Shown here piece by piece: positions 13,553-39,412 of a stretch of DNA of 64,000 nucleotides. A model generated the notes under the pieces. It ran no database searches. It saw only the letters and a program-made list of their open reading frames with translations, and was not told the DNA's origin. How positions within the stretch are numbered: the stretch's first letter is position 1; each line of letters opens with the position of its first letter. The stretch spans positions 1,178,001 to 1,242,000 of the forward strand of contig NZ_SOEO01000001.1 in NCBI RefSeq assembly GCF_004365655.1, in the 5' to 3' direction. The translations under genes and the position numbers were made by a program. This DNA is from Epilithonimonas xixisoli. GTDB lineage: Bacteria; Bacteroidota; Bacteroidia; Flavobacteriales; Weeksellaceae.

Positions 13553-14074
13553 TTAGTTTTCAAAAGTTTCAAAGGTTCCGTCTTCGTAAAAGAAAACAAT
13601 TCTTTTCACATTCTTCTTTTTTGAATCGTGTTTTTGACTCAAATTTTCTAATCGCTGAGAATCGGATAAAATATTTTTTTCTGACTTGTGATAGGAAATA
13701 TTGGATTCTCGCGCATTTTCATTTTTTGTAGAATTTTGTGGAGTGTCATCTTTTCCAAAGTTCTCGTCATCTATCAAAGAAAACAAATCTGGCAAAGACG
13801 GTTTTTTCTTCTCTACAACTTCTGGTTTTTCTTTAACTATAGGTTCAGATTCTTTTTCCGAGATTAACATTTTGCCTTCTCCAGTGATTAGCCAACTCCA
13901 TTCAAATTCTGGAAAAGCGGTTTTTATTTTGGTAATGAAATCGAGAGAAGGTTTGTTACGTCCAGAAATAATATGAGAAATGCTCGATCGTTGCACACCA
14001 ATTTCTTCTGCAAATTCTGCCGGCGATAATTCTGAATGTTCTATTACTTTTGTAAATCTATTGCTGAAATCCAT
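13553..14074 (-). CDS. XRE-family helix-turn-helix regulator
   Basis: This 173-residue protein has an N-terminal HTH_3 domain (about 1-65): RFTKVIEHSELSPAEFAEEIG, then VQRSSISHIISGRNKPSLDF with the recognition helix. WSWLITGEGKML follows, as in small phage-type repressors. Residues about 80-150 are charged, low-complexity and probably disordered. A short conserved tail KRIVFFYEDGTFETFEN ends the protein. The start region is surrounded by five TTACnnnnGTAA-type palindromes (14044-14143), which makes autoregulation likely. A -7-like TACATTTG ends 4 bases before the ATG, so the mRNA may be leaderless. Confidence 0.85.
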   Translation of the reverse strand: MDFSNRFTKVIEHSELSPAEFAEEIGVQRSSISHIISGRNKPSLDFITKIKTAFPEFEWSWLITGEGKMLISEKESEPIVKEKPEVVEKKKPSLPDLFSLIDDENFGKDDTPQNSTKNENARESNISYHKSEKNILSDSQRLENLSQKHDSKKKNVKRIVFFYEDGTFETFEN

Positions 14075-14143
14075 TTTACAAATGTAATTAAAATTGTTTA
14101 CAATTGTTTTACATTTGTAACCGAGGGTTATTTACTTTTGTAA
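14044..14143. promoter_or_regulatory. Operator array TTACnnnnGTAA at the XRE gene start
   Basis: Four exact matches to the palindrome TTACnnnnGTAA lie at 14044-14055 (TTTT core, inside codons 7-10), 14076-14087 (AAAT), 14109-14120 (ATTT) and 14132-14143 (TTTT). A fifth, imperfect one (TTACAATTGTTT) lies at 14098-14109. Start-to-start spacings of the exact sites are 32, 33 and 23 bases, close to whole helical turns. They overlap the XRE start and the region upstream, where its promoter must be. Confidence 0.65.
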
Positions 14144-14902: not shown

Positions 14903-15961
14903 CTAAGACTCTATATTGTGAGGTTTCTTTTCGGGAAACATCAAGGAAGTTGCGATACTTAAAAATAAGATGGATACAATCACAATCAAAGAATGTGAAG
15001 TAGTAAATCCATTATCATCCAGATAGTGGTGGAAGATCATTTTGAGACCGATAAACGTAAGTAACGCAGCCAAACCAATCTTCAGAAATCGGAACTTATT
15101 CACAATTCCGGCCAGTAAGAAGAACATCGATCTAAGTCCGATAATTGCAAAGATATTGGAGAAAAAGACAATGTAAGGATCTTTGGTAATCGAGAATATC
15201 GCTGGAATACTATCAACCGCAAAAATCAAATCTGTAAATTCTACGATAATCAAAACCAGGAACAACGGTGTCATTTTCTTGATGCCATCGATAACGACAA
15301 AGAATTTGTTGCCTACAAATTGGTTATGAACTTTGAAATGTTTTTGGGCAAACTTTACCACAGGATGATGTTGCGGATCTATCTCGTCTTCTTTATTTCT
15401 ATCGATAAACATTTTGACTCCCGTATATATAAGGAAGGCTCCGAAAACGTACATAATCCATTCAAACTTCTGAATCAAAGCAGCACCTATAAATATGAAT
15501 AGGAATCTCATCACAATCGCTCCGAAGATTCCCCAGAACAATACGCGGTGATAATTGCGCGGTGCAACTCCAAATCCTGAAAACACAAGAAGTATAACAA
15601 AGATGTTATCTATAGAAAGCGCATATTCTACCAAATAACCGGTTAGAAATTCGAGGCCAAGATTTTTATTATAAAGCATGATGCTATGCTCCAGATTATC
15701 CGGAATGATCTTGATCGGATGTTTATGCTTTGCAACGACTTCTTGTAATCTCTCGATGCTATCGATCCCGTGGATCTGATGACCGAAGTAGGTAAGGACG
15801 ATATAAAATCCTAAAGAAAGAAGAATTATGAAAACACTCATCAAGCCAGCTTGTTTCAAAGACACCGCTGAATCTTTTTTGTTGAAAACTCCCAAGTCGA
15901 GTAGGAGGAGTGCTAGTATAAATATCAAGAATCCCGAAAGGAATAAAATCTCGTTGCTCAT
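14903..15961 (-). CDS. TerC family integral membrane protein
   Basis: This 352-residue protein has about nine hydrophobic segments and matches TerC/Alx proteins. It shows FILALLLLDLGVFNKKD at the N-terminus, FLTGYLVEYALSIDNIFVILLVF (acidic SxDN motif), and VVIDGIKKMTPLFLVLIIVEFTDLIFAVDSIPAI with the second acidic motif. Family members are linked to tellurite resistance and, more recently, manganese export; the substrate here cannot be read. It is followed by the NTR-like gene 15 bases downstream. A -7 box (minus TATTTTTG, 15978-15985) precedes it. Confidence 0.92.
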   Translation of the reverse strand: MSNEILFLSGFLIFILALLLLDLGVFNKKDSAVSLKQAGLMSVFIILLSLGFYIVLTYFGHQIHGIDSIERLQEVVAKHKHPIKIIPDNLEHSIMLYNKNLGLEFLTGYLVEYALSIDNIFVILLVFSGFGVAPRNYHRVLFWGIFGAIVMRFLFIFIGAALIQKFEWIMYVFGAFLIYTGVKMFIDRNKEDEIDPQHHPVVKFAQKHFKVHNQFVGNKFFVVIDGIKKMTPLFLVLIIVEFTDLIFAVDSIPAIFSITKDPYIVFFSNIFAIIGLRSMFFLLAGIVNKFRFLKIGLAALLTFIGLKMIFHHYLDDNGFTTSHSLIVIVSILFLSIATSLMFPEKKPHNIES

Positions 15962-16300
15962 CAGTAAAAAATATGAGCAAAAATAGCGAAATTATTATGA
16001 TTTAGACACTTATACATTTGTAAAATATCAATATTTTAAAAGAAATTTTTGTTTAGCATTCTGATGAACAAATGAAAGAATATACTTGTTATCCATATTA
16101 AAGTAGATTTAAAATTGTACTTTAATAAAATTTCATAACGCATTGAAAAATAATGTTTTATTATTTTTAAATAAGAATATATCAATCCACAAAATAATTA
16201 ACAGACAAGTTGTCATTTTAACTTGTTTAATGATTTTACAAATGTAATTGTTATTATTTCAGATTAAATGTTATTTTTGTCAAAATCTAAAAGAGCAATT
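15962..16300. other. Divergent intergenic region, TerC / M14 peptidase
   Basis: This very AT-rich stretch holds the TerC -7 box (15978-15985), a near operator match ATACATTTGTAA (16012-16023), an exact TTACAAATGTAA (16236-16247) and the M14 promoter (16248-16279). I see no coding or RNA gene in it. Confidence 0.55.
16236..16279 (+). promoter_or_regulatory. Promoter of the M14 peptidase with an upstream palindrome
   Basis: A -33 TTG (16248-16250) and a -7 box TATTTTTG (16272-16279) are separated by 21 bases, fitting the Bacteroidota promoter. The palindrome TTACAAATGTAA (16236-16247), identical to one in the XRE array, abuts the -33 element. Confidence 0.5.
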
Positions 16301-17404
16301 ATGAACTACAGTTTTCCTTATTCCAAAAATTCAAACTTCCCAGAACGCTATATTTCTCCAGAAAAATTATTTTCTTACTTACAGGACAATTACAGCAATC
16401 AGATCACAGAAATTGGAAAGTCTGGTTTAGGAAAACCCATCTATATGATGACGCTCGGAAATGGAAATATTCGTGTTGCTGCCTGGTCACAAATGCACGG
16501 CAATGAATCTACTGCGACATTAGCAATGTTGGATCTTCTGGCAATTACAGAGAAACATCCTGAACTCACAGACAAATTATTTTCTTTGATTCAGCTGGAT
16601 TTTATTTTTATGCTAAATCCGGACGGTTCAGAAACTTGGTCTCGCAGAAATGCTTTTGATATAGATCTGAACAGAGATTTCATTAGAACGTCAAGTAGTG
16701 AAATGCGACTTTTGAAATCGATAATTCTGAATGGTAACTATAGCTATCTTTTGAATCTTCACGATCAAAGAACAATTTTTACAACAGATGGCGTTCATCC
16801 TGCAACTTTATCTTTCTTAGCATCGTCGGAAAATATTGAAAGAGATGTGACGGAAAACCGTAAAAAAAGTATGGCGGTGATTGCAGCAATATATCTTCAA
16901 ATGAAACACGTTTTGCCCAATCGAATTGCAAAATATACAGACGAATTTTACCCAACATCTAGCGGAGACAATTTTATGAAATCAGGAATTCCGTCTATTT
17001 TGATTGAAGGCGGTTTTTATGAAAATGATTTGGATCGGAACAAAACCAGAGAGTTTTATACCCAAGCTTTGTATTTTGCTTTGAAAGCTATGTCTGTACT
17101 GAAAGGTGACACATTGAGTTACGAAACATATTTGGATATTCCACAGAATAAAGAAACCCATTTTGATTTGATCTACAGAAATGTAAAACTGAACACAGAG
17201 TTTGAATGCATTATGGATATCGCTGTACAGTACAGAGAAATTCTGGACGAAAATTATAAACTCACATATCAGCCGTACGTGATTGAAGTTGGTGATTTGA
17301 ACCACAAAAAAGCTTGGCAAGAATTAGATTGTACAAATAAGAAATTTGTCTCTATCAAGAAATTCCCAAAACTAGATTCTTTAGTAGATTTCAAAATAGA
17401 ATAA
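16301..17404 (+). CDS. M14 family zinc carboxypeptidase
   Basis: This 367-residue metallopeptidase starts at the ATG at 16301. An in-frame ATG at 16268 overlaps the -7 box, so it is probably not used. Zinc ligands are H66 and E69 in QMHGNEST and H154 in LNLHDQ. The substrate-binding NR pair is in FDIDLNRDF (124-125), and the catalytic glutamate is probably E236 in SILIEGGFYEN. No signal peptide is visible, so a cytoplasmic location is likely; the family hydrolyses peptides or amidated amino acids. The C-terminal 110 residues form an extra domain. It is transcribed alone. Confidence 0.9.
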   Translation: MNYSFPYSKNSNFPERYISPEKLFSYLQDNYSNQITEIGKSGLGKPIYMMTLGNGNIRVAAWSQMHGNESTATLAMLDLLAITEKHPELTDKLFSLIQLDFIFMLNPDGSETWSRRNAFDIDLNRDFIRTSSSEMRLLKSIILNGNYSYLLNLHDQRTIFTTDGVHPATLSFLASSENIERDVTENRKKSMAVIAAIYLQMKHVLPNRIAKYTDEFYPTSSGDNFMKSGIPSILIEGGFYENDLDRNKTREFYTQALYFALKAMSVLKGDTLSYETYLDIPQNKETHFDLIYRNVKLNTEFECIMDIAVQYREILDENYKLTYQPYVIEVGDLNHKKAWQELDCTNKKFVSIKKFPKLDSLVDFKIE

Positions 17405-39187: not shown

Positions 39188-39300
39188 TTTTTATGACAGC
39201 AATTTTTTATTGATAAAAATAACTTAGATTGAGGAAAAGAATTCCAAAAGAATTGACAAATTTTATACTTTTTTTTAGCTGATTGGATTGCAAAACCCAT

Positions 39301-39412
39301 AGCCCCGATTGCAGTGGAAATCCTTTTTTGCGTAAACTTCGAGTTCAACTTAATGCCAATTGTCTGCAAAAAAGATTGCAACGGAAAGCGGGAAATAGCT
39401 CCTAAAAAAATA
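39301..39412. repeat. Hairpin repeat element, copy 2
   Basis: AGCCCCG at the left and CGGG...AGCT at the right form the outer arms. CTTTTTTGC (39323-39331) pairs with GCAAAAAAG (39366-39374). Inside each half is a copy of GATTGCAgtGGAAA (39307-39320) or GATTGCAacGGAAA (39374-39387), a direct repeat within the inverted one. It is related to the element at 29498-29620. Confidence 0.6.

Follow-up and report, generated by a model that had tools for sequence, protein, structure and literature searches.

A predicted operator array over the promoter and start codon of a conserved chromosomal XRE regulator gene in Epilithonimonas xixisoli

Results

The XRE gene and its neighbourhood

We analysed a 64-kb stretch of Epilithonimonas xixisoli DNA (hereafter the window), in which a minus-strand gene at 13553–14074 encodes a 173-residue XRE-family regulator. 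An orthologue is present once in each of the 23 Epilithonimonas-like genomes that form our genus set, the genome of E. xixisoli included. The protein matches HTH_3 (PF01381) with 32.1 bits against a cut-off of 23, which places it among helix-turn-helix (HTH) proteins of the XRE/Cro type. In an AlphaFold2 model built from 45 sequences (mean pLDDT 70.9, pTM 0.40), the HTH domain is predicted with confidence (residues 1–70, block means 84–90). It is followed by a low-confidence, apparently disordered linker and a C-terminal beta hairpin at residues 158–172 (block means 78–91). A motif of approximately I-V-x-F-Y-x-D-G-x-F-E recurs at the C-terminus throughout the order. Pfam yields no protease-type or S24-type C-terminal domain, and the model contains just the short hairpin after the linker. 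Foldseek searches with the model returned HTH domains as the best PDB matches, including those of 434 Cro, P22 c2, SinR and DdrO, at a probability of 1.00 and with no match at E ≤0.001.

The 14 proteins examined in the neighbourhood, encoded between approximately 8.0 and 22.6 kb of the window, comprise the XRE protein itself, an anti-sigma factor, an ECF sigma factor, two ferritin-like proteins, radical SAM, TIMP-like, TerC, M14, GH30, MFS and NUDIX/NrtR-type proteins and two further proteins without a Pfam match. No phage family was seen among them, in agreement with the initial annotation, which had remarked on the lack of phage genes around the array. We rejected an identity as a phage CI-type repressor on this ground, together with the conservation of the gene across the order and the lack of an S24-type domain. 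The TIMP-like gene (PF00965, 14234–14887) is inserted between the TerC and XRE genes in just part of the genus. Elsewhere in the window, a Flavo-1 sRNA (RF01705) is found at 39297–39399 with 74.4 bits.

Divergent from the XRE gene, a plus-strand gene at 16301–17404 encodes a 367-residue M14-family zinc carboxypeptidase (PF00246), and a TerC/Alx-type gene (14903–15961) lies between the two. Residues H66, E69, H154 and E236 of the M14 protein form the HxxE...H plus Glu pattern and are at least 97% identical across 65 aligned rows. We take their roles as zinc ligands and catalytic glutamate from carboxypeptidase A. No signal peptide is evident by eye, and the sole PDB match is 4axv (MpaA) with an E value of 0.0085.

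Four exact palindromes at the XRE start

The palindrome TTACnnnnGTAA occurs in four exact copies at 14044–14055, 14076–14087, 14109–14120 and 14132–14143, with start spacings of 32, 33 and 23 bases, as the initial annotation had described. If the A of ATG (14074, minus strand) is numbered +1, these predicted operators lie at +20, −13, −46 and −69, respectively. The +20 site extends to +31 and covers parts of codons 7–11; the earlier reading had correctly put it inside the gene and had given its extent as codons 7–10. A fifth exact copy in the window, at 16236–16247, is located 65 bases before the M14 gene.

The expected number of exact copies per 64-kb window is 0.65 from 100 dinucleotide shuffles and 0.73 from 300 first-order Markov windows, so that the two or three chance matches assumed earlier were an overestimate. 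Two sites at most 100 bases apart occurred in none of the 300 Markov windows. The clustering of four sites is not due to chance, a point on which the first reading was right.

A near copy, TTACAATTGTTT (14098–14109), had been counted as a further member of the array. It overlaps the next site by one base and departs from the palindrome at two positions; it also falls within the part of the region that is least conserved (−33 to −15, 0.72 bits per position, versus 1.47–1.86 bits per position in the arms of the −46, −13 and +20 sites). For these reasons, we consider it probably a chance resemblance within a poorly conserved spacer and do not retain it as a fifth site.

Conservation of the array within the genus

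In 20 of 23 genus genomes, all four sites (one mismatch allowed) occupy the same positions when counted from the XRE start, and all four are exact in 9 of 23. Taken singly and with the same tolerance, the −13 site is present in 23/23 genomes, and the +20, −46 (at −46 or −47) and −69 (at −68 to −70) sites are each present in 22/23. We counted 37 exact pairs separated by a gap of 8–25; they come from 16 of the 23 genomes and every one of them is located at the XRE start, and the reversed control pattern gives 3 matches. The search for equally dense clusters at unrelated places therefore leaves the array standing, and we read it as a phylogenetic footprint.

At the +20 site, codon choice appears fixed as well: Thr8 is encoded by ACA in 22 of 22 genes (56 of 184 Thr codons elsewhere in the same genes) and Val10 by GTA in 18 of 22 (48 of 133 Val codons elsewhere). 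This bias supports a constraint acting on the DNA and, because the genomes are related, does not prove it. The sites at the XRE gene are kept where neighbouring genes change. In one genome (G004, locus L112), a transposase-like ORF (PF05598, 2502–3842 of that locus) interrupts the XRE upstream region: three of the sites stay on the side of the gene, and a site of the distal type is still present past the ORF.

Conservation beyond the genus

For a wider comparison, we used the best 80 of at least 588 confirmed XRE matches, some of which come from genomes of the genus set. Close relatives of the window with a name are found in Epilithonimonas tenax, E. hominis and Chryseobacterium sp. FH1 and FP211-J200, which makes the window Epilithonimonas-like. 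One locus (L298) had too little upstream DNA and was left out, resulting in 79 loci, which include Chryseobacterium, Kaistella, Riemerella, Halpernia, Flavobacterium, Aquimarina, Salegentibacter and some Bacteroidales metagenome-assembled genomes (MAGs). Sites were sought from −150 to +40 of the match start; in some loci the site lies a few codons inside the gene. Within these best 80 of at least 588 matches, an exact site is found near the XRE start in 73 of 79 loci (120 sites in total) and is absent from 6, and reversed DNA of the same loci gives 3 sites in 3 loci. Since the loci are related and were chosen as the best 80, these counts do not represent independent events. No exact site was found at any of 12 loci whose XRE genes match less well and are probably not orthologous (0/12). 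A conserved palindrome at the gene's own promoter is thus present in the genus (20/23 genomes with all four sites) and in the wider set (73/79 loci). A contig labelled as a Lachnospiraceae MAG (L234, JAGOLM010000094.1) carries a 63% identical XRE protein together with an array of the genus type, and is probably mis-binned.

Distances between sites in the named loci peak at 13, 22, 33–35, 46 and 67–68 bp, near multiples of the helical turn. Some of these values add up from others, and they are shared through common ancestry. Eleven exact sites in the 79 loci have the core AATG, i.e. TTACAATGGTAA, which in the Flavobacteriaceae loci compared contains the start codon. Outside the genus, arrays include one-mismatch copies and other spacings, and the exact-pair pattern is not enriched there (15 matches versus 18 for the reversed pattern in 55 non-genus genomes). 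Judged by their coordinates, two of these 15 pairs belong to the XRE start (in G031 and G028), and some lie elsewhere. In the wider family sample, 16 of 60 genomes match.

A promoter element within the −13 site

The −7 element of Flavobacterium johnsoniae promoters is described as T−12 A−11 nn T−8 T−7 T−6 G−5 (PMC6847099). In the sense of the gene, the sequence of the −13 site is TTACATTTGTAA, which presents T, A, TTT and G at just these distances from the A of ATG. On the basis of this match, we predict a −7 element of the form TAnnTTTG, TACATTTG, at 14079–14086 on the minus strand and a transcription start at 14074, the A of ATG itself. Such a start would be unusual in view of reports on relatives, in which leaderless mRNAs account for 5.5% in F. 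psychrophilum (PMC9723704) and leaders longer than 10 nt are given for 87% of predicted F. johnsoniae transcripts (PMC6847099).

An exact site in this promoter form is found in 62 of the 79 named loci. Within the genus, the core of the −13 site is invariant (2.0 bits) and that of the −46 site varies (1.41 bits), which is what a double role as operator and promoter predicts. The core of the +20 site is equally invariant (2.0 bits), perhaps as a result of coding, so that invariance is not special to the promoter site.

Sites upstream of the M14 gene

Of the 23 genus genomes, 22 have an exact copy of the predicted operator at 16236–16247, and the remaining one has a copy with one mismatch; a putative −7 element of the M14 promoter, TATTTTTG, can be read at 16272–16279 on the plus strand. 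The M14 gene is divergent from the XRE gene in 66 of the 75 named loci with at least 1 kb of upstream DNA, and its start could be placed in 65 of them. Within 120 bases upstream of this start, a site with at most one mismatch is found in 62 of 65 loci and an exact site in 34 of 65 (50 sites), compared to 2 of 65 in reversed DNA. In the named Flavobacteriaceae, the M14-side sites commonly lie near −84, −50 and −26. A similar arrangement of genes is seen in family f3: of 13 genomes that have an XRE orthologue, 12 have M14 as its divergent neighbour.

Twelve further genomes were chosen in which the XRE and M14 genes are not neighbours or, in one case (G112), no clear XRE orthologue exists. Eight of them have no M14 match, three have one elsewhere (G143, G112 and G054) and one has a weak partial match (G100). 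None of these four matches away from the XRE gene has an exact site within 400 bases upstream; one-mismatch sites are present in G143, G112 and the weak case G100. In G143, the XRE gene keeps several sites though the M14 gene is located elsewhere. From both observations, we conclude that the sites go with the XRE gene.

A conserved non-coding block on the TerC side

On the TerC side, a one-mismatch site at 16012–16023 lies upstream of the TerC gene. If one mismatch is allowed, 17 of 23 genus genomes keep it, 224 bp (14 genomes) or 225 bp (3 genomes) away from the M14 site; the corresponding distance is 234–236 in six genomes from other genera. Six of the 23 genus genomes do not have the TerC/Alx-type gene at this place and contain just a 46–47% identical relative elsewhere. 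Because all six keep the 16012 site 224–225 bp from the M14 site, we did not adopt TerC as its target.

Between the two sites, a non-coding block (16024–16235) contains the conserved words TAAACA, TTTGTCTGTT..TTTTGTGG and TAAAGT..ACTTTA. Its length of approximately 224 bp is fixed in the genus even where TerC is gone. A strict pattern derived from one block gives one match in 13 of 23 genus genomes, each at this locus, and the E. xixisoli copy is one base off this pattern. In Rfam, the block has no family beyond one chance-level match, and RNAalifold yields no structure on either strand (energy 0.0), which led us to dismiss a structured RNA. The block may serve in looping, give rise to a transcript or contain a site for another regulator.

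Single sites elsewhere in the genome

The genome scan proposed with the initial annotation shows that single sites are not enriched: TTACnnnnGTAA occurs 59 times in the E. xixisoli genome versus 143 times for the reversed pattern and is thus rarer than its control. The same holds for the form with an A/T core (13 versus 24 reversed) and, among the matches listed, for this form in 10 relatives. Of the 13 TTACWWWWGTAA sites in the genome, four constitute the array and one precedes the M14 gene.

We compared the flanks of 9 single sites of E. xixisoli and 55 sites of relatives, which are part of those found. Several of them are common to genus genomes and lie before unrelated genes. Most of the shared intergenic sites hold TAnnTTTG oriented towards the following gene and may be no more than promoters, for which reason we do not claim these genes as targets, i.e. 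as a regulon beyond XRE and M14.

Discussion

The sites, their conservation, their overlap with a promoter element and their co-inheritance with the XRE gene are established from sequence. From them we infer binding by the XRE protein, repression, cooperativity and control of the M14 gene: an XRE dimer quite probably binds TTACnnnnGTAA and represses its own promoter, and M14 would be controlled from the same kind of site where it is the divergent neighbour. The conservation of the array strongly supports its reading as an operator set for the XRE protein itself. This part of the initial interpretation holds; the second target M14, the promoter element in the 14076 site and the depth of conservation had been missed.

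In the proposed mechanism, an XRE dimer would occupy the four spaced sites over its own promoter and start codon via its 434-repressor-like HTH domain and repress its own transcription (negative autoregulation). Because the −13 site contains the −7 element, a dimer bound there would block RNA polymerase directly, and this promoter-overlapping site would act as the switch. The flanking sites, approximately two or three helical turns away, would raise its occupancy, probably in a cooperative manner and possibly through contacts between the conserved C-terminal hairpins. Cooperative binding is plausible from the recurrent spacings of 22 and 33–35 bp.

The operator reading has to be weighed against the possibility that the palindromes are several adjacent promoters in A+T-rich DNA, i.e. 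Bacteroidota −7 elements TAnnTTTG, and not operators. Both TTACATTTGTAA and TTACTTTTGTAA indeed contain this element, and in the genus genomes several shared single sites lie before unrelated genes in promoter sense. The distal sites of the genus, however, mostly read TTACAAAAGTAA or TTACAAATGTAA in gene sense, with the element pointing away from the gene. One site is located within coding sequence, the full palindrome is kept at fixed spacing, and the 12 weaker XRE homologues have no palindrome, which together make promoters as the sole explanation very unlikely. Somewhat less improbable, and still unlikely, is that the sites are bound by some other regulator, which would then control the XRE gene as well as M14. 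That the XRE protein itself binds is a prediction from DNA sequence, the sites are conserved upstream of M14 too, and Wang et al. 2025 raise the same alternative generally for their motifs (PMC12565409). Nevertheless, the sites accompany the XRE gene widely (73/79 loci), the three M14 genes away from it all lack exact sites, and paired matches in the genus occur nowhere but at the XRE start.

A domesticated phage repressor or an antitoxin-type module would account for the Cro-like fold of the protein and for its weak similarity to the RstR and HigA models and to repressor families in PHROG. Both NCBIfam scores fall far below their cut-offs (28.1 versus 80 for RstR; 22.1 versus 47.7 for HigA, TIGR02607), and the latter led us to reject an identity as HigA antitoxin. 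The neighbours are of the housekeeping type, each of the 23 genus genomes has one orthologue, and phages (2 records) and plasmids (6 records, all below 60% identity) contain weak matches alone. We regard this origin as highly improbable.

Going beyond the preferred reading of XRE self-repression, we tentatively suggest, as a possibility that we hold to be doubtful rather than likely, an order-wide flavobacterial chromosomal module. In this module, XRE operators would be fused with the housekeeping promoter element and dedicated to the XRE gene itself and to one divergent, probably cytoplasmic M14 peptidase; it would produce a leaderless, self-repressed mRNA in Epilithonimonas and answer a signal, perhaps a cell-wall or other peptide.

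Bacteroidota and model bacteria have different promoters. In the present case, conservation across many genera directly reveals a likely operator, where it sits with respect to the promoter, and a very small set of targets, so that a single experiment in a laboratory strain could address the regulator together with its motif and target. The XRE system further offers a handle on a widely conserved M14 peptidase.

Like the murein tripeptide amidase MpaA, the M14 partner is an M14 zinc peptidase with no signal peptide evident by eye. Unlike MpaA, it scores 22.5 against the NCBIfam MpaA equivalog cut-off of 157, and by this test it is not MpaA.

Closer to the regulator itself is an HTH protein with a C3L50 locus tag, which probably denotes a Flavobacterium. 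In an EMSA survey, this protein, C3L50_11205, bound the palindromic Motif_210, which had been derived from the regions preceding XRE genes (Wang et al. 2025, PMC12565409). The Motif_210 probe has a TTAC segment, and the motif is said there to adjoin genes of unassigned function. Among the literature matches listed, and judged by title, this report alone is directly relevant to the XRE/palindrome system. Both systems combine an HTH protein with a palindromic motif upstream of XRE genes and may belong to the same family; the array, the promoter overlap and the M14 link do not appear in the main text of that report. If the family is the same, an orthologue has already been seen to bind, and the present analysis adds the array, the overlap with the promoter, the link to M14 and the depth of conservation in the phylogeny.

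Control of the phage 434/P22 type resembles the XRE system in two respects: (i) the model of the XRE protein has a DNA-binding fold like that of 434 Cro and repressor according to Foldseek, and (ii) several phased palindromic sites lie over the gene's own promoter, where they likely serve self-repression. In contrast to the phage systems, the XRE gene is chromosomal and conserved across the order, with no phage genes seen nearby and no protease-type C-terminal domain found. The label 'phage-type', given to the array in the initial annotation, should thus be taken as an analogy only. The XRE system appears to be old; it belongs to the chromosome, not to a phage, and follows an ordinary logic of self-control.
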